64,000 bases of DNA, taken from NCBI RefSeq assembly GCF_031198435.1, contig NZ_CP133548.1, positions 3,940,001 to 4,004,000 of the forward strand. The letters run 5' to 3'. Below, piece by piece: positions 28,059-54,503 of this stretch (its first letter is position 1; the number at the start of each line of letters is the position of its first letter). Origin of the DNA: Pleionea litopenaei. Its GTDB lineage: Bacteria > Pseudomonadota > Gammaproteobacteria > Enterobacterales > Kangiellaceae. Below the pieces are notes generated by a model. It was not told the DNA's origin. It was given only the letters and a program-made list of their open reading frames with translations, and did no database searches. The position numbers and the translations under genes were made by a program.

Positions 28059-28872
28059 CGACGAGCTCCTGAGCCTTCTGCGCTGAATCTAGGTAGAGTT
28101 TAGAAAGTTGTACCGGAACGGTAGAATAACCTGATAATTTCGGCTGATCTTTACGGTATTTGTTAGAAATTCTTAACGAGCCCGGTTAATTATGGAGCAA
28201 AGCTTGGCTGCGCTGTCGATAGGTTACTCGGAATCTAATCTAGGATTCACACTTGATTGATCATAAGTCGACCGCTAGAATGCTCATCAATCTTTAAAGG
28301 AAAAATTTTACAGGAAACCGCTTTGTTACTCTTAAACTGTTATCAACCTCTAAGCATACCGTTAGTAGGCAATCGCTCTACCAGCGATTTCGTGCTCGGG
28401 TGCCTGTTGATTAAACAAGCGGAGCATACAAAGTAAGTTAACTTCCAGTTTTGGAAGTTTGCAGCTTCCGAAAGCGGATTTTATAAAACGAACAAGTTTT
28501 GAATTGATAAAAACGTCGGAAGCTGAAAAGCAACCGGCGTTTTTTTATGCCTTGAAAAAATACAGAAGGACAAGTCATTGACGAATAAATATCGAATATT
28601 GGTGTAGTTGATTGAAATTGAATGGGTCTGTTTCAAACAAATGAGGTGAATTTACCTAGGTTTTTAGGTGAAGGGTTTTGTACGTCTGCAATATGCGTAA
28701 GTTGTTGAAAAATAAATAAAATAATTAATAAAATGCATTGACGAAGCGTTTTTTTCGCGATTAAATAGCCGGACATTGATTGAGGGAAGTCATTTTTAAG
28801 TTAGCGTCCTCAAAAATGCTGTATGAATAAACTGAATTAGATGAACGTAAGCAAGAAAACTTAAGAAAGGTA
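28059..28872. other. Long AT-rich upstream region of the RNA island
   Basis: About 810 bases without a convincing gene. It holds a hairpin at 28367-28405 (inner stem AATCGCT / AGCGATT, outer AGGCA / TGCCT), the attenuator-like element at 28440-28547, and weaker stems around 28650-28672 and 28790-28818. The left ~250 bases would contain the divergent promoter of the DUF885 gene. Confidence 0.5.
28440..28547 (+). promoter_or_regulatory. Attenuator-like terminator/antiterminator RNA
   Basis: Three stems can form. First, AACTTCCA / TGGAAGTT (28440-28459). Second, a perfect 10-bp pair CAGCTTCCGA (28462-28471) with TCGGAAGCTG (28516-28525). Third, AAAACGTCGG (28510-28519) with CCGGCGTTTT (28534-28543, one G-T pair), followed by a run of seven Ts. 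The second and third share bases 28516-28519 and so exclude each other. This is the layout of a transcription attenuator or riboswitch expression platform. No known riboswitch aptamer is recognised. Confidence 0.55.
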
Positions 28873-29124
28873 ATGAGAGACATGATGATGACATCGAATA
28901 GCCATAGCGGAAAAATCAGTCGCCAGAAGATTTCAGGTAATGGCACCGCTAATGATCGCCATTTTCTCATTCATTTGACTGAGCAATTGATTGCTTATGC
29001 CGATAGTTGTGAAAGTGGAATAGGTTATTTGGTGGGAGATAAACGTGATTTGGTAGGACATAAAAAAAGTGCATTGGTAAAGGAAAATCTATTTCCGATA
29101 GAGAGCAACATCAAACTAAATTAA
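28873..29124 (+). CDS. Small hypothetical protein of the RNA island
   Basis: An 83-aa ORF with a ribosome site (AAAGG, 3-4 bases before the ATG). It is hydrophilic with a basic, Ser/Gly-rich N-terminus (GKISRQKISGNG) and a more folded middle (FLIHLTEQLIAYADS, then GIGYLVGDKRDLVGHKK). I recognise no family. It lies between two attenuator/terminator-like RNA elements, and its stop codon is one base before the next hairpin. It might be a leader or regulatory product of the island. That it is translated is plausible but unproven. Confidence 0.5.
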   Translation: MRDMMMTSNSHSGKISRQKISGNGTANDRHFLIHLTEQLIAYADSCESGIGYLVGDKRDLVGHKKSALVKENLFPIESNIKLN

Positions 29125-29217
29125 AACGCTTCCTTGTTTGGAAGCGTAGGCTTCCGGATAAGAGAGAATCGTTTTGAGTATTCTTGAACCGCAAGCCGAA
29201 AGGTTTGCGGTTTTTTT
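29125..29217 (+). terminator. Leader hairpin plus strong intrinsic terminator
   Basis: Directly after the 83-aa ORF is the hairpin ACGCTTCC / GGAAGCGT (29126-29147). The terminator proper is at 29187-29217: an 11-bp stem AACCGCAAGCC / GGTTTGCGGTT (one G-T pair), a GAAA tetraloop and seven Ts. AAAACG (29123-29128) can instead pair with CGTTTT (29170-29175), giving a second fold. It ends 35 bases before tRNA-His. Confidence 0.8.
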
Positions 29218-29252
29218 ATGCCAAAACTTTGCGAGGCTCAGTCATTATTGGA

Positions 29253-29329
29253 GTGACCATAGCTTAATTGGGTAAAGCTTCGAGTTGTGATCTCGAATGA
29301 TGCCGGTTCAAATCCGGTTGGTCACCCCA
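29253..29329 (+). tRNA. tRNA-His (GTG), atypical
   Basis: Acceptor stem GTGACCA / TGGTCAC, D-arm GCTT / AAGC with GGG in the loop, anticodon loop TTGTGAT (GTG), T-arm GCCGG-TTCAAAT-CCGGT, discriminator C73 and encoded CCA. The base before position 1 is A, not the G-1 found in most bacterial tRNA-His genes, so the genome-encoded G-1:C73 identity pair is missing. The flanks form a perfect 11-bp inverted repeat (29241-29251 with 29327-29337) that would pair through the CCA. It is the first tRNA of the island. Confidence 0.88.
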
Positions 29330-29550
29330 ATAATGACTGCATTGAGCGGTAGAGCAATTTTCTGCTGGCCCAATAATGACTGCATTGAGCGGTAGAGCAA
29401 TTTTCTGCTGGCCCAATAATGACTGCATTGAGCGGTAGAGCAATTTTCTGCTGGCCCAATAATGACTGCATTGAGCGGTAGAGCAATTTTCTGCTGGCCC
29501 AATAATGACTGCATTGAGCGGTAGAGCAATTTTCTGCTGACACAATAATG
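29329..29550 (+). repeat. Five 43-bp tandem repeats after tRNA-His
   Basis: Units start at 29329, 29372, 29415, 29458 and 29501. The first four are identical; the fifth differs only near its end (TGACAC for TGGCCC), and a partial AATAATGA follows at 29544. Each contains GAGCGGTAGAGCA, which resembles a tRNA D-arm, and CCAATAATGAC, which copies the 3' end and trailer of tRNA-His. They look like amplified tRNA-derived fragments. Frames open on the minus strand across them are simple products of the repetition and are not genes. Confidence 0.9.
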
Positions 29551-29636
29551 ATGTTTTTAAACGGAAGAGTTTAATAGAAGGGTGGTGATCAATTATCTCC
29601 AAGGATGGAGACCCTCACTTCTCTTTACTTTATTAG

Positions 29637-29665
29637 AGCAAGGTTGAGCAATACCTTGCTTTTTT
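29637..29665 (+). terminator. Intrinsic terminator just upstream of tRNA-Leu
   Basis: Stem AGCAAGGT / ACCTTGCT (8 bp, 8-base loop) followed by six Ts, ending 6 bases before tRNA-Leu. It closes the tRNA-His/repeat transcript, or is a processing signal for the tRNA. A small hairpin CTCCA-AGGA-TGGAG lies upstream at 29597-29610. Confidence 0.85.
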
Positions 29666-29671
29666 ATTAAA

Positions 29672-29748
29672 GCCCTGGTGGCGGAATTGGCATACGCGGC
29701 GGATTTAGATTCCGTTTTCTGAGAGTTCGAGTCTCTCCCAGGGTACCA
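29672..29748 (+). tRNA. tRNA-Leu (TAG) without the long variable arm
   Basis: Acceptor GCCCTGG / CCAGGGT, a Leu-like D-arm (GCGGAATTGGCATACGC), anticodon loop TTTAGAT (TAG), T-arm GAGAG-TTCGAGT-CTCTC, A73 and CCA. The variable region is only 5 bases (TTTCT), giving 77 nt in all. Bacterial tRNA-Leu is normally class II with a long extra arm and ~85 nt or more. The amino acid identity is therefore less certain than the anticodon. Confidence 0.85.
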
Positions 29749-29780
29749 AGTCTAATTTTGGTAACGCATTAAATCGATTT

Positions 29781-29855
29781 GGGTGCATAGCTCAAAGGTA
29801 GAGCGACGGCCTGTTAAGCCGTGGGTTGAAGGTTCAAGTCCTTCTGCGCCCGCCA
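29781..29855 (+). tRNA. tRNA-Asn (GTT)
   Basis: Acceptor GGGTGCA / TGCGCCC, D-arm GCTC-AAAGGTA-GAGC, anticodon stem ACGGC / GCCGT with loop CTGTTAA (GTT), T-arm GAAGG-TTCAAGT-CCTTC, G73 and encoded CCA; 75 nt. This is the most regular tRNA of the island. Confidence 0.92.
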
Positions 29856-29894
29856 ACATTGAGGTTCAATAAAAAGATTGCGATGGCAAGATAC

Positions 29895-29952
29895 TGCTGA
29901 GGTTTTGCCCTACAGACCCGTCACGGTGAAAGTCCGACTCAGCAACTTTTTT
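29895..29952 (+). ncRNA. Structured element ending in a T-run, just before the CAT tRNA
   Basis: A 7-bp stem TGCTGAG (29895-29901) / CTCAGCA (29938-29944), enclosing a 36-base region with CCG-TCA-CGG and GTGAAAGTCC, followed by a run of six Ts that ends 2 bases before the next tRNA. It may be an intrinsic terminator with a large structured loop, or a decayed RNA gene. I do not recognise it. Confidence 0.4.
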
Positions 29953-29954
29953 AG

Positions 29955-30028
29955 GGGCTGCTAGCTCAATTGATAAGAGCATCCGGCTCATAACCGGAGG
30001 GTTCCGAGTTCGAGTCTCGGGCGGCCCA
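29955..30028 (+). tRNA. tRNA with CAT anticodon on a Lys-type body, no encoded CCA
   Basis: Acceptor GGGCTGC / GCGGCCC, D-arm GCTC / GAGC, anticodon stem TCCGG / CCGGA with loop CTCATAA (CAT), T-arm CCGAG-TTCGAGT-CTCGG and A73, followed by TTA so no genomic CCA. It is 63/74 identical to the tRNA-Lys 150 bases downstream, including the anticodon stem, so it is probably a duplicate with an altered anticodon. The D-loop has GA where GG is expected. It could be elongator Met or Ile2 (lysidine-modified). It is unlike the regular tRNA-Met at 54427-54503. Confidence 0.82.
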
Positions 30029-30180
30029 TTAAATTTTTAAATTTGTCTATTTTGATGATGTGTATTTTTTACTTTGGATTTACTTTGAAATTACGTTGAT
30101 TGCTTTGTGAAGAAAGGATCGCAATGTTAACAAACGGATTAATCCTAAAGTGATTGATCCAAAATTAATTAATCAAGAAT

Positions 30181-30257
30181 GGGTTGCTAGCTCAACTGGC
30201 TAGAGCATCCGGCTTTTAACCGGAAGGTTTCGAGTTCGAATCTCGGGCGACCCACCA
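30181..30257 (+). tRNA. tRNA-Lys (TTT)
   Basis: Acceptor GGGTTGC / GCGACCC, D-arm with GG, anticodon stem TCCGG / CCGGA with loop CTTTTAA (TTT), T-arm TCGAG-TTCGAAT-CTCGG, A73 and encoded CCA. It is the likely parent, or sister, of the CAT tRNA upstream. It ends 37 bases before the cREC gene start. Confidence 0.92.
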
Positions 30258-30294
30258 AAACTCGTTCATGTTATTGGTCGAAAGGAGGACTATC

Positions 30295-30606
30295 ATGAAA
30301 TTATTTCTAGACGATGTACGTCCTGCACCAGCAGGTTGGAAAGGCGTTCGCTGGCCACAAGAGGCCATTAGCTTGCTGATGACTGGTTCGGTAACCGATT
30401 TAAGTCTCGATCACGACTTAGGAAATGACCAAAAAGGAACGGGTTACGACGTTATCGTGTGGTTAGAAAAAGCAGTGGTTGAATATGGTCTCATTCCACC
30501 CAGCATTCGGATCCATTCATCCAATGGGCCTGCACGTAAGCGAATGGAGCAAGGCGTTCGTTCGATACAATATTTACATCGAACACGCGGGCGAAAGCTT
30601 TATTGA
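30295..30606 (+). CDS. Cyclic-phosphate-processing receiver (cREC) domain protein
   Basis: A 103-aa single-domain protein. It opens with MKLFLDDVRPAP, has SLDHDLGNDQKGTGYD in the middle and IHSSNGPARKRM near the end, which fits the cREC_REC family: receiver-like proteins with clustered acidic residues, predicted from genomic context to act on cyclic-phosphate RNA ends in RNA-repair systems. The ATG at 30295 follows AAAGGAGG, a near-perfect ribosome site; an upstream in-frame start is ignored. It is embedded between tRNA-Lys and tRNA-Cys, which supports a link with tRNA metabolism. The enzymatic activity is predicted, not shown. Confidence 0.8.
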   Translation: MKLFLDDVRPAPAGWKGVRWPQEAISLLMTGSVTDLSLDHDLGNDQKGTGYDVIVWLEKAVVEYGLIPPSIRIHSSNGPARKRMEQGVRSIQYLHRTRGRKLY

Positions 30607-30792
30607 TCCCCGCGTATCAAATTGCAGTAGAGGTTTTTCAAGCTAACCAATAGTTTCGAAGGGTTATTGGATCGTTTGAAAGTTTAGGAAGAGATAAAAC
30701 AAGGACGTTTCTTATTGCATAGATTATGCAAAAGTTTATTCGCCAAAATATTTTAACTTAATTTTTTGTAAGGTGTACTTGGAAGGTGTTCT

Positions 30793-30867
30793 AGGGCGGT
30801 GGCAGAGTGACCATGCGGTAGGTTGCAAATCTATAGAAGGCGGGTTTGATTCCCGCCCGACCTTCCA
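30793..30867 (+). tRNA. tRNA-Cys (GCA) with an acceptor mismatch
   Basis: D-arm GCA / TGC, anticodon loop TTGCAAA (GCA), T-arm GCGGG-TTTGATT-CCCGC, U73 as usual for Cys and encoded CCA. The acceptor stem AGGGCGG / CCGACCT has one G-A mismatch at the fourth pair. The leader TTGGAAGGT (30779-30787) is perfectly complementary to ACCTTCCAA (30860-30868), which covers part of the acceptor 3' strand and the CCA, so an alternative fold is possible. The D-loop has GA rather than GG. Confidence 0.78.
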
Positions 30868-30920
30868 AAAACGATAATAATTGAACCAAATTGGGAACCG
30901 ACGTTTTCAAGGAGAAGAAC

Positions 30921-31481
30921 ATGCAAACGCGAATTCTACGATTAAATAAAGCCGGACAAGCAATGGAGTGGATCGATCATGAAACTGCTGCGAGTTTGTA
31001 TGCTAAACAACAAATTGTGTGGAGTTTCGGTGATGAGTCAACGATATTGCATGGAGGATACTCCCGATTGAATGGAGAACGCTCAATAATCAAACTTGCA
31101 CCCGTTATCGCAACGGAAGGTCAAGTGAATCAATTTGATCAGCGAATACCGAAGCTTTGCAACAGTGCGCTGTTTCGACGTGATCAAAATTTATGTTTGT
31201 ATTGTGGTCAAAAGTTTCGCTCTGCCGAGTTAACGCGAGACCATGTGATGCCACAAGCAAGAGGGGGACCGGATACTTGGACTAATTGCGTTGCTGCGTG
31301 TAAGTCGTGTAATCACTTTAAAGCATGCCGGACACCCGATGAAGCGAATATGCCATTATTAGCCATTCCTTTTAAACCCAATAAATGGGAATATTTGGCA
31401 TTGGCTAATAGAAATATTCTGGCCGATCAAATGCAGTTCTTAGTGAAGGGCTTTTCAAATAATATGAGGCGGCTAAGTTAG
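30921..31481 (+). CDS. HNH endonuclease
   Basis: A 186-aa protein with an HNH nuclease domain in the second half: LCLYCGQKF (first CxxC), RDHVMPQARGGPDTW (the catalytic His in DH), TNCVAACKSCN (Asn and second CxxC). The four Cys bind a structural zinc and the HNH core binds a catalytic metal. The first ~85 residues are a separate domain with no motif I recognise. I chose the ATG at 30921 after AAGGAGAAG. It is 53 bases downstream of tRNA-Cys. The target, DNA or RNA, is unknown. Stand-alone HNH proteins of this kind are common beside phage and mobile tRNA clusters. Confidence 0.9.
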   Translation: MQTRILRLNKAGQAMEWIDHETAASLYAKQQIVWSFGDESTILHGGYSRLNGERSIIKLAPVIATEGQVNQFDQRIPKLCNSALFRRDQNLCLYCGQKFRSAELTRDHVMPQARGGPDTWTNCVAACKSCNHFKACRTPDEANMPLLAIPFKPNKWEYLALANRNILADQMQFLVKGFSNNMRRLS

Positions 31482-31498
31482 CCGTCTCATATTATTTG
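31456..31498 (+). terminator. Long palindrome overlapping the HNH stop codon
   Basis: The sequence around the HNH stop forms an inverted repeat of ~20 bp (AAATAATATGAGGCGGCTAA / TTAGCCGTCTCATATTATTT, one G-T pair). The TAG stop lies in the apex. A/T tracts at both ends make it a candidate bidirectional terminator. Confidence 0.7.
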
Positions 31499-31799
31499 GA
31501 TAGGAAGGTGTTATTAAAGTATTTCACTGATTCAATTAAGAAAAATGTGACCTAATTTCCGGTCTAACAATAGAATATTCGATACTCTTAAAATGCAGCG
31601 GTAAAGCGAAGATATCGACTAAAAAATGACTCGGTCGCTACGACTTATTATGCGATGCATATAGGTATCTGAGATAGCCGTTCTGCAGTTTAAGGTGACC
31701 TTTAGTTTAATATCACCTTTAGTTTAAGATCACCTTTAAAAGTATGAAAGGGTGAATAAAGGTTGAATAAGATTATTTGGATGATCAAAAGGAAAAGTC
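31482..31799. other. Intergenic region after the island
   Basis: About 320 bases with no gene. Around 31690-31740 there are three imperfect copies of a CACCTTTAGTTTAA-like unit. I see no RNA gene. Confidence 0.5.
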
Positions 31800-42834: not shown

Positions 42835-44031
42835 ATGGGCAACTGTATTCAAAATTTGTCTGAAAACGTTATTTTGGTTGCAAAATCAGACACCTGGATC
42901 GAAGGAAAAGCGATCCAACAATTAAATAAAACGGCTGAGTTAAATGGAATGATCCGCGCAGCAGGTATGCCAGATCTCCATCCAGGTCGTGGCTACCCGA
43001 TCGGTGCTGCTTTCTTAACACAAGGTAAAATTTACCCTGCCTTAGTTGGAAATGACATTGGTTGTGGTATGGGGTTGTGGTCGACCGATATAAAAGTTCG
43101 GAAGGTTAACCTCGATAAGTTTACTAAGCGATTAGCTCATATCGATGCGCCATTGGATGACTCATGGAATGACTATCGTTCAAAGCGAATGAGCGAAAAA
43201 GGGCTCGCGCCGACATCGTTTGATTCAGCTTTGGGAACCATTGGCGGAGGCAATCACTTTGCAGAACTTCAGCAACTCGATGAAGTTTATGATGACGAGT
43301 GCTTAAAGCAGTTCGCCATCGACAAAAATCACCTAGTGTTGCTAGTGCATAGCGGCTCCCGTGGCTTGGGGCAAAGTATACTGCGACAACATGTTGAGGC
43401 GTTCGGGCATGCTGGTTTAACTAGCTCGACTGAGGCTTTTCACTCATACATGCTCAACCATAATGCTGCGGTAACCTTCGCCGAATTGAACCGAGAGTTG
43501 ATTGCTTTACGCATGCTTAAAAGTTTAAGCGCGAAAGGAAACAACCTATTGGATGTTAATCATAATTTGGTGACTCGTTTCGAAAGCTCTTCAGCAGTGA
43601 ATTCGCATGAGAACCTCACGAGCGAAGGCAATGTTGACCTGTGGGTGCATCGAAAAGGCGCGACGCCAGCGGATCAAGGACTGGTGATGATTCCAGGTTC
43701 AAGAGGTGATTACAGTTACCTCGTTAAACCGCTCGTCGAGTCGGAGCAAAGCCGAACTTGCTTACACTCTTTGGCTCACGGTGCGGGTCGTAAATGGATT
43801 CGTAGTGACTGTAAAGCGCGTTTGTCGAAACGATTTAAAAAGTCTGATCTAGAACGCACTCAATTCGGTAGCCGAGTGATTTGTAAGCACAGCGAATTGA
43901 TCTTTGAAGAAGCGTCAGAAGCTTACAAGTCAATCGACTCGGTGATCGCAGCGATGCAAGACGGCGGTTTAATTCAGTCGATTGCGCGGTTTAAGCCGGT
44001 CTTAACCTATAAAACATCGGGAGGCTGTTAA
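42835..44031 (+). CDS. rtcB2: RtcB2-type 3'-5' RNA ligase
   Basis: A 398-aa RtcB-family ligase that joins 3'-phosphate or 2',3'-cyclic-phosphate ends to 5'-OH ends using GTP and Mn2+. Visible motifs: LVGNDIGCGMG (metal-binding Asp/Cys), GGGNHFAELQ, HSGSRGLG, and LAHGAGRKW, whose His (residue 315) is the expected GMP-carrying residue. It is followed by prfH with a one-base overlap, which marks the RtcB2-PrfH pair known to rescue ribosomes with cleaved 16S rRNA, as after colicin E3. It lies behind a leader ORF and attenuator-like hairpins. No rtcA or rtcR is present in the window. Confidence 0.93.
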   Translation: MGNCIQNLSENVILVAKSDTWIEGKAIQQLNKTAELNGMIRAAGMPDLHPGRGYPIGAAFLTQGKIYPALVGNDIGCGMGLWSTDIKVRKVNLDKFTKRLAHIDAPLDDSWNDYRSKRMSEKGLAPTSFDSALGTIGGGNHFAELQQLDEVYDDECLKQFAIDKNHLVLLVHSGSRGLGQSILRQHVEAFGHAGLTSSTEAFHSYMLNHNAAVTFAELNRELIALRMLKSLSAKGNNLLDVNHNLVTRFESSSAVNSHENLTSEGNVDLWVHRKGATPADQGLVMIPGSRGDYSYLVKPLVESEQSRTCLHSLAHGAGRKWIRSDCKARLSKRFKKSDLERTQFGSRVICKHSELIFEEASEAYKSIDSVIAAMQDGGLIQSIARFKPVLTYKTSGGC

Positions 44032-44678
44032 TGATTTTGTTTTTACTATCAGCCGCTCAAGGCCCAAGCGAATGTTGTTTAGCCGTTTCATTAGCGGCTA
44101 AACAGCTGAATCGCGATGCGGTAAAAAGTGGAGTAGCAATTACCTTAGTTGAGTCTGAACAAGGGTTAGAGCCGCAAACTTACAAGTCGATGTTATTTAA
44201 GTTAGAGGGGGATCGCGCGGAAGATTTAGCGAAGCAATGGAGCGGAACGCTGCAGTGGATTTGCTCGAGTCCGTATCGACCAAAGCACCGTCGAAAGAAT
44301 TGGTTTTTTACCGGAAGTTTTACTAAATCTGAAGCGCTGATCAAGGCAAGTAGGGTTCAAGAAACGGATCTGCTTTTCGAAGCATGTCGTTCATCGGGGC
44401 CGGGTGGGCAACATGCCAATAAAACCAGCTCTGCAATTCGAGCGAGCCATGTACCCTCGGGTATTGTGGTGAAAGTCGAGTCTGAACGAAGCCAACACGC
44501 GAACAAGCGATTGGCCATAGCTTTGATTGAACATAAGCTAGAAAAGAACATGGCCGAGAAGCAACGTTCTGACAAAAGCAAACGGAGACTGCAACATCAC
44601 TCCATTGAGCGGGGCAATGCTGATAGAGTTTTCAAAGGGATGAAATTCGAGGAATCTTCTTCACCCAAAGTGAAATGA
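44031..44678 (+). CDS. prfH: Peptide chain release factor H
   Basis: A 215-aa class-I release-factor-like protein. The GGQ motif is at 125-127 in RSSGPGGQHANKTSSAIR, the peptidyl-tRNA hydrolysis loop, with a basic RSQHANKRLA segment behind. It lacks the full stop-codon-reading domain of RF1/RF2, as PrfH does. It shares one base with the rtcB stop (TAATG), so translation is coupled. With RtcB2, PrfH frees peptides from ribosomes damaged in the decoding centre so that the rRNA can be religated (established for the family). Confidence 0.92.
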   Translation: MILFLLSAAQGPSECCLAVSLAAKQLNRDAVKSGVAITLVESEQGLEPQTYKSMLFKLEGDRAEDLAKQWSGTLQWICSSPYRPKHRRKNWFFTGSFTKSEALIKASRVQETDLLFEACRSSGPGGQHANKTSSAIRASHVPSGIVVKVESERSQHANKRLAIALIEHKLEKNMAEKQRSDKSKRRLQHHSIERGNADRVFKGMKFEESSSPKVK

Positions 44679-53903: not shown

Positions 53904-53954
53904 TGCATTCAATATGCAGTAATGATTAATTATTGTGAGCGAAGAGTTCGTATA

Positions 53955-54420
53955 GGGGCAGATTGTATCAAAAACGGCTTATGCGTTTTTGACCCTACGG
54001 GCTTCGCAGCGTTGCTGCTCGTAGCGAATTGCTGGCGCAATTGGTGAACTGTTGGGCTGGTGAACGTATCTTTTACTGCCAGATACAAAAAAGCCCTCAT
54101 AAGGAAGGGGGCAGATTGTATCAAAAACGGCCTAAGCGTTTTTGACCCTGCGGGCTTCGCAGCGTTGCTGCTCGTAGCGAATTGCTGGCGCAATTGGTGA
54201 ACTGTTGGGCTGGTGAACGTATCTTTTGCGGCCAGATAAAATATGACTTCATAAGGAAGGGGCAGATTGTATCAAAAACGGCCTAAGCGTTTTTGACCCT
54301 TGCGGGCTTCGCAGCGGTGCTGCTCGTAGCGAATTGCTGGCGCAATTGGTGAACTGTTGGGCTGGCGAACATATCTTTTGCGGCCAGATACAAAAAAGCC
54401 CTCATAAAGAGGGCTTTTGT
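53955..54420 (-). repeat. Tandem ~152-bp repeats derived from the tRNA-Met 3' region
   Basis: Three head-to-tail copies start (plus-strand view) at 53955, 54108 and 54259, spaced 153 and 151 bases. Each begins GGGGCAGATTGTATC, of which GGGGCAGATT is identical to the T-arm/acceptor part of the tRNA-Met at 54427. Each has a hairpin TCAAAAACG / CGTTTTTGA and AATTGC / GCAATT. They also carry decayed copies of the tRNA terminator (AAAAGCCCTCATAA). Open frames across them on the minus strand are not genes. Confidence 0.85.
54392..54418 (-). terminator. Terminator of tRNA-Met
   Basis: Stem AAAAGCCCTC / GAGGGCTTTT with a 5-base loop. Read on the minus strand it ends in a T-run, 9 bases after the tRNA 3' end. 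Confidence 0.85.
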
Positions 54421-54426
54421 TGAATC

Positions 54427-54503
54427 TGGTAGCAAGGGGCAGATTTGAACTGCCGACCCCATCATTATGAGTGATGTGCTCTAACCAACTGAGCTACCTT
54501 GCC
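54427..54503 (-). tRNA. tRNA-Met (CAT)
   Basis: Minus strand: acceptor GGCAAGG / CCTTGCT, D-arm GCTC / GAGC with GGTT, anticodon loop CTCATAA (CAT) in stem ATCAC / GTGAT-type, T-arm GGCAG-TTCAAAT-CTGCC, A73 and encoded CCA. It resembles the E. coli elongator tRNA-Met. This is a regular tRNA, unlike the CAT tRNA of the island. Confidence 0.93.

Follow-up and report, generated by a model that had tools for sequence, protein, structure and literature searches.

Amino-acid biosynthesis operons such as trp, his and leu are controlled by transcription attenuators, and in trp-type control a lack of translation leads to termination. Attenuators of this kind and those that sense antibiotics (bmrCD, hflXr) share, in the parts of the literature consulted, a leader open reading frame (ORF), alternative hairpins and an intrinsic terminator. 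Clustered, redundant and divergent tRNA genes accompanied by HNH genes are known as tRNA array units from mycobacterial chromosomes, phages and plasmids (PMC5966550, PMC12803027); such units have been termed a putative antidefence system, and the consulted part of a paper on Mycobacterium avium calls the role of tRNA arrays unknown (PMC12803027). In Anabaena, an operon of 26 tRNA genes is described as silent until translational stress, under the repressor TrcR (PMC10272220). Here, we analyze an island at positions 28360–31500 of a 64,000-nucleotide stretch of the Pleionea litopenaei chromosome (hereafter the window; positions 3,940,001–4,004,000 of the 4.38-Mb contig NZ_CP133548.1), in which tRNA genes follow two candidate attenuators. 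Judging from sequence comparisons and folding, we hold with moderate confidence that this island is a chromosomal reserve tRNA array, silenced by serial ribosome-dependent transcription attenuators and induced by translation failure.

An initial annotation of the window, made from the DNA letters alone, had described an RNA-rich island, and all of its elements proved real: six tRNA genes, a gene for a predicted cyclic-phosphate processing receiver protein (cREC), an HNH endonuclease gene, 43-bp repeats, a small ORF (28873–29124) and two attenuators, all on the forward strand. The six tRNA genes (29253–30867) are called by both ARAGORN and Rfam, with 46–73 bits against a cut-off of 29. Like the tRNAs of published array units they are redundant with, yet different from, chromosomal tRNAs, and they have an HNH gene beside them, as is common though not universal in such units; the published size of at least 20 clustered tRNAs (PMC5966550) is not reached with six genes here, although relatives carry up to 20. 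The window array differs from the mycobacterial units in its cREC gene and in its tandem attenuators with amino-acid-rich leaders, which the consulted parts of the mycobacterial reports do not mention. With the Anabaena operon, whose trcR mutant shows raised expression of HNH genes and rtcB (PMC10272220), it would share the character of an extra, silent tRNA operon, but TrcR is a DNA-binding repressor, whereas the window array would be controlled by predicted leader translation. Compared with the known attenuators, its leaders contain no run of one amino acid and nearly all amino acids, the predicted state without translation is on, and the output is tRNA. The statement in the initial annotation that no described system has this content holds for the cREC partner and the leader design, neither of which we found described in the literature searched; it fails for tRNA arrays with HNH (PMC5966550, PMC12803027) and for a stress-induced tRNA operon (PMC10272220), both of which have been reported.

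The attenuator units follow one design: a short ORF, its stop codon, a hairpin A:B beginning at the stop, a segment C able to pair with B or with D, and a D:E intrinsic terminator. Leader ORF 1 (28323–28436) starts with TTG after AGGA, and its 37 codons specify 19 of the 20 amino acids, without Trp; a TTG at 28257 could serve as the start of a longer form. Attenuator 1 (28437–28546) places A at 28440–28447, B at 28452–28459, C at 28462–28471, D within 28510–28525 and the terminator at 28510–28546, and its hairpin has a z-score of -3.7. This layout is repeated at three related loci (L043, L044, L173), with the leader ORF in the same place at the first two. Leader ORF 2 (28882–29124), 80 codons counted from 28882 within the small ORF that begins at 28873, also specifies 19 of 20 amino acids, again without Trp. 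It ends at attenuator 2 (29125–29216), with A at 29126–29133, B at 29140–29147, C at 29149–29157, D at 29189–29197 and the terminator at 29186–29216. A third terminator (29635–29662), before the tRNA-Leu gene, is overlapped by a weak, by-eye candidate, a 21-codon GTG ORF at about 29582–29647 that contains Trp. An attenuator is marked by a short ORF whose end lies directly ahead of competing hairpins and an intrinsic terminator, and this arrangement is found here. The enrichment of one codon that marks amino-acid-specific attenuators is absent: the leaders hold 12–20 different amino acids and, by eye, no single-amino-acid runs beyond a few residues.

We infer leader translation, an on/off logic and a trigger, as well as the roles of cREC and HNH. 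When the leader is read to its stop, the ribosome would cover A, B:C would pair, and D would be left free to form the D:E terminator, keeping the array off. A ribosome stalled upstream of A, or a failure to start translation, would instead permit A:B and C:D to pair, and the tRNAs, cREC and HNH would be transcribed. With nearly every amino acid in the leader, lack of any charged tRNA could act as the trigger. Because the units stand in series, all would have to open unless inner promoters feed the later ones. Promoter-like sites are visible by eye between units 1 and 2; a promoter scan returned 7 against 8.0 by chance, no excess.

A consensus terminator scan of the window region likewise gave no excess over shuffled sequence (4 hits, where shuffles averaged 3.7), so the case for the terminators rests on recurrence in other genomes. 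The window shares two attenuators upstream of tRNA-His with L043 and L044; three units each occur at L045 and L046 and two at L047. Further units lie before or within the arrays of L170–L173, and two at L235, from another family of the class. The 23-base B–C motif of attenuator 2 is present in 4 of 40 family genomes, once in each and at the array, and had no exact match in viral contigs. Rfam assigned the attenuators to no known RNA family, its non-tRNA matches falling below the family cut-offs.

To pick leaders without judgement by eye, a blind start rule was run on 38 terminators in 18 array loci, with region limits set after looking. It found a leader ORF at 29 of the 38, against 18 of 90 control terminators taken mostly from genomes of other species that are often GC-rich (Fisher P 3e-9). 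In the window, the rule takes the longer start of leader ORF 1, passes over leader ORF 2, whose 80 codons lie outside its range of 28–70, and picks no ORF at the third terminator.

The leaders are mostly unlike each other in sequence, yet amino-acid-rich. In the first test, with 14 leaders whose starts were set by eye, the numbers of distinct amino acids summed to 252, against 225.7 ± 5.4 in protein windows and 233.1 ± 5.7 from the leaders' own composition (0 of 4000 draws for each comparison). The 29 blind leaders summed to 534, against 479.9 ± 7.8 in 690 random ORFs of matched length from the same Kangiellaceae contigs, a reference used since the 18 control-terminator ORFs were too few for length matching, and against 502.0 ± 6.8 from their own pooled composition (0 of 20000 draws each). 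At least 19 amino acids were present in 17 of 29 leaders, compared with 7.1% of random ORFs (11.1% at 36–70 codons) and none of the 18 control-terminator ORFs; 8 of 29 leaders and 1.3% of random ORFs contained all 20. Counting one value per homology cluster (23 clusters) left 420.3 against 397.1 ± 6.1 (z 3.85; 0 of 20000), and a hand-kept set, with the fourth L046, first L047 and L234 leaders dropped, L133 added and some starts shortened, gave z 4.8 in the cluster test. Leaders from loci seen before the idea arose (17; z 5.35; 0 of 20000) and after it (12, from L170–L173 and L233–L235; 222 against 196.6 ± 5.5; z 4.65; 0 of 20000) behave alike, at least 19 amino acids occurring in 7 of the latter 12 and all 20 in 5. 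Beyond the blind set, three leaders from Variovorax plasmids each contain all 20, and two of three Variovorax leader pairs show a third-position excess, which bears indirectly on leader translation.

We folded 25 units, leaving out L133, L136–L139, L233, L234 and the fourth L046 pick; the first L047 unit was folded with a different ORF from that of the blind rule. The 34 nucleotides (nt) after the stop fold better than shuffles (mean z -2.98; below -1.5 in 23 of 25). For the alternative pairings, RNA running from the stop through D was folded freely or with the 10 nt after the stop blocked, mimicking a ribosome that has reached it. In the free fold, D paired with upstream RNA at 0.51, and under masking at 0.35, compared with 0.40 and 0.38 in shuffled stretches; both this pairing (Wilcoxon P 2.6e-6) and its release on masking (P 5e-4) exceed the shuffles, with P values to be read in light of the partial non-independence of the folded units. 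The drop on masking is at least 0.1 in 16 units, among them attenuator 2 (0.52 free, 0.27 masked; 6% of shuffles drop equally), and taken singly, 9 of 25 units show a drop reached by at most 5% of shuffles. As a control, a tRNA region of a T5-like phage was uninformative, since it contained no terminators. Sequence comparison supports the array and its recurrence, its terminators and leader ORFs, the stop-codon hairpin and, for the set as a whole, the alternative pairings, as well as the excess of amino acids.

The same switch might sense general translation arrest, as caused for example by antibiotics, with the amino-acid make-up of the leaders irrelevant. Ribosome-free RNA would fold as A:B and C:D just the same, translation inhibitors are reported to induce the cyanobacterial tRNA operon (PMC10272220), and antibiotic-responsive ribosome-mediated attenuators already appear in the literature consulted. 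Yet the amino-acid diversity of the leaders exceeds that of random ORFs, of control-terminator ORFs and of draws from the leaders' own composition, and we consider this explanation rather unlikely.

The array itself recurs in related genomes. Within the order, relatives of the HNH protein (E <= 1e-20) were found in 21 of 394 genomes, and 14 of the 21 belong to the organism's own family. tRNAs adjoin the HNH gene in 10 of these 14, a count that includes one genome with a single tRNA on a 3.9-kb contig (G004) and one with two tRNAs (G006); in the other four (G002, G003, G013, G025) no tRNA lies within 1.5 kb of HNH. Six of the ten also have cREC, and there (G000, G001, G004, G007, G009, G011) cREC and HNH stand side by side at the downstream end of the tRNA stretch. 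In four of these (G000, G007, G009, G011) tRNA-Cys sits between them; the cREC-tRNA-HNH order, which the initial annotation proposed to look for elsewhere, thus recurs in other genomes. The remaining four of the ten (G006, G010, G016, G022) gave no cREC match in the 12–16 kb fetched. In all, a cREC search of 61 genomes gave 9 with the gene, the organism's own included, and three of these (G010, G034, G045) had no tRNA in the 16–17 kb read around it. ARAGORN places tRNA-His first in the arrays of six genomes (G000, G007, G010, G011, G016, G022), in the window and at L043, L044, L170, L171 and L173. Since family arrays reach 20 tRNAs (L043; G007) and the window has six, the window copy is a shrunken member. 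In G001, a repeated element of ~85 nt seems by eye to break several array tRNA genes (L046 6660–6830, 7170–7320 and 7340–7570) near the T loop, and ARAGORN misses these tRNAs as a result.

Arrays also occur outside the family. An HNH relative is present in 72 plasmid records; ten regions from these were fetched, and eight contain tRNA arrays: L133 and L136–L139 from Variovorax, Methylibium or Polaromonas, L140 from Variovorax, L143 from Mycobacterium intracellulare and L144 from Acidiphilium; L141 and L142 have none. The arrays at L133 and L136 comprise 23 and 27 tRNAs, and on a Nostoc plasmid found through tRNA similarity an HNH gene precedes 23 tRNAs. In that Nostoc array (L135 2961–3200), a 72-codon ORF with all 20 amino acids (19 in 40 codons) stops 20 nt short of a strong terminator that precedes the HNH gene and tRNAs; it was excluded from the test counts. 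Array cargo includes an RNA ligase (PF09414) in one Variovorax array, HD and AlkB-like genes in a Methylibium array, and a release-factor-like gene in the scattered array L140. The RNA-repair and translation cargo (RNA ligase, release-factor-like protein), together with RtcB encoded in the P. litopenaei genome, is consistent with a reserve of tRNAs.

The array could alternatively be a selfish or phage-derived element spread by HNH, with no tuned host role and decaying here. HNH genes of this sort have been proposed to take part in generating or spreading tRNA clusters (PMC5966550, PMC6409571), and among mycobacterial array units HNH is reported to be the gene found most widely (PMC5966550, PMC12803027); plasmid-borne arrays, the short array and tandem repeats of the window and the damaged cREC of G001 and G004 would also fit. 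However, arrays with similar leaders persist across genera of one family, and the HNH family is mostly unlinked to arrays: it occurs in 169 of 369 class genomes, and among loci from the class and phylum searches (the best 30 per search) a tRNA lies within 1.5 kb in 4 of 57 (L185, L202, L203, L230). We regard this explanation as improbable, and HNH, a common family mostly distant from tRNAs at the loci examined, was rejected as a marker of arrays. The mobile array suggested by the initial annotation found little backing at this locus: no integrase was present among seven proteins scanned around the island, and no search for bounding repeats was made, while related arrays do occur on plasmids. 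A comparison by DNA similarity for a phage or plasmid origin gave, among the matches listed, coverage of at most 4% of the query, at tRNA genes or unannotated stretches.

The tRNA genes themselves bear on their role. tRNA-His (GTG; 29253–29329) leads the array, followed by tRNA-Leu (TAG; 29672–29748), tRNA-Asn (GTT; 29781–29855), a tRNA with a CAT anticodon (29955–30028), tRNA-Lys (TTT; 30181–30257) and tRNA-Cys (GCA; 30793–30867), the last lying between cREC and HNH as it does at L043, L044 and L045. The CAT tRNA has no encoded CCA and by eye resembles the array tRNA-Lys; tRNA-Leu has a short variable arm and 77 nt, compared with 85 nt in the chromosomal copy. Aligned with chromosomal tRNAs of the same anticodon, the array tRNAs are 58–74% identical, in agreement with the initial annotation that most differ from canonical ones. 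They are not the sole copies in the genome, a possibility that the annotation had named as counting against its interpretation: the anticodons of the five non-CAT tRNAs occur elsewhere, as do four other CAT tRNAs, in a list that is a lower bound, 150 of 311 candidates having been scored. That interpretation, a tRNA reserve or decoy set, stands in its first half: the reserve is the best reading of the island, and the leader design points to induction by translation failure; decoys with altered anticodon loops find little agreement, four of six loops being equal to those of chromosomal tRNAs. A role against the anticodon nucleases of phages or rivals, as decoys or as substitutes that resist cleavage, has been proposed for phage tRNAs (PMC10264068) and array units (PMC12803027) and would suit the low identity to host copies, but four anticodon loops (His, Asn, CAT and Lys) are identical to those of the host in alignments read by eye (only Leu and Cys differ) and a leader testing all amino acids would be superfluous, making this idea, which overlaps with a reserve, very improbable.

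Some features of the tRNA region stand apart from this argument. The array tRNA-Leu has 75–77 nt in the window, L043, L170 and L171, unusual for a leucine tRNA, and 86 nt in L045. A 13-bp inverted repeat (CAGTCATTATTGG) at 29239–29251 and 29327–29339 brackets tRNA-His and would extend its acceptor stem; the 5' stretch before tRNA-His, in this inverted-repeat region, is nearly identical in L043 and L044. The 43-bp tandem repeat (29326–29551; 5.3 copies) includes the tRNA-His trailer and matched the searched loci of relatives over at most 13 bases. Elsewhere in the window, a 153-bp tandem repeat (53954–54407; 3.0 copies) adjoins a tRNA-Met (CAT) gene at 54427.

Several observations weigh against a ribosome-controlled reserve array. 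The first helix lies at most 6 nt from the stop in 21 of 25 units, but so it does in 69% of shuffles, and a helix near the stop therefore says little by itself. In 9 of 25 units, masking either raises D pairing or reduces it by under 0.1; one of them is attenuator 1, where B:C could win only by forming first during transcription. No rule-picked ORF precedes 9 of the 38 array terminators, several leaders are homologous, so that leader-level tests overstate independence, and some leaders are poor, with 12–17 amino acids (for example at L046, L047, L172, L173 and L235). Both window leaders lack Trp; for leader 1, 19 amino acids are mildly unusual (P 0.017–0.035), and for leader 2 they are expected by chance at its length (P 0.48–0.77). 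The window array has only six tRNAs. Finally, cREC is optional, being split by a frameshift in G001, stripped of most conserved residues in G004 and not found beside four arrays.

Of the two protein genes of the island, cREC would provide the link to RNA repair. The cREC gene (30295–30606) encodes 103 amino acids (aa) matching PF20274 (E 1.4e-26); the protein is 72–74% identical to three array relatives and keeps the Asp residues, as expected of this family. Its domain, shared with cREC proteins of phages and bacteria, is a predicted resolver of 2',3'-cyclic phosphates linked to RNA repair and is described as experimentally uncharacterised (PMC7824862, PMC9503650); here it stands at the 3' end of the array beside tRNA-Cys and HNH. 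The HNH endonuclease (30921–31481; 186 aa; PF14279, E 7.2e-15) is the protein found beside tRNAs in 10 family genomes. cREC was rejected as the core of the system: four arrays showed none, and most cREC loci are away from tRNAs (a tRNA within 2.5 kb in 7 of 80 loci in genomes, none within 2.5 kb in 73). Among viral cREC loci, a tRNA lies within ~4 kb in 21 of 80, several inside tRNA clusters, a figure without a matched control. RtcB is encoded twice in the genome, one copy inside the window, and is the likely ligase partner of cREC. The proposed division of labor is that spare tRNAs would refill a damaged pool, while cREC would process the 2',3'-cyclic phosphate ends that tRNA-cutting RNases leave behind, so that RtcB could re-ligate them.

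Around the RtcB genes, we noted two further features. About 11 kb downstream of the island, the window carries the second RtcB gene (TIGR03073), followed directly by one for peptide chain release factor H, PrfH (TIGR03072, E 1.2e-78); at 42835–44678, the two form a module that pairs an RNA ligase with a release factor. Some 1.5 kb from the first RtcB gene, on the minus strand, lies a tRNA-like gene without a proper anticodon (L240 6732–6794; G000:C1:1850731-1850793), labeled only as tRNA by Rfam; as a guess, it could belong to an RNA repair operon as a Y-RNA-like element.

Extending the proposal beyond P. litopenaei, we lean narrowly toward a general bacterial sensor of tRNA completeness, in which all-amino-acid leaders and five-segment attenuators would open reserve tRNAs and RNA-end repair genes upon failure of any single charged tRNA. 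The titles and opening lines of abstracts searched held nothing resembling attenuation or leader peptides at tRNA arrays, or all-amino-acid leaders, and the leader design seems to be new. If the leaders do test all amino acids, tRNA arrays would be a regulated answer to tRNA failure, whether by cleavage or lack of charging, rather than cargo. The units would then represent a new attenuation logic, with a single switch covering every amino acid, and would tie cREC to tRNA repair in a bacterial setting.

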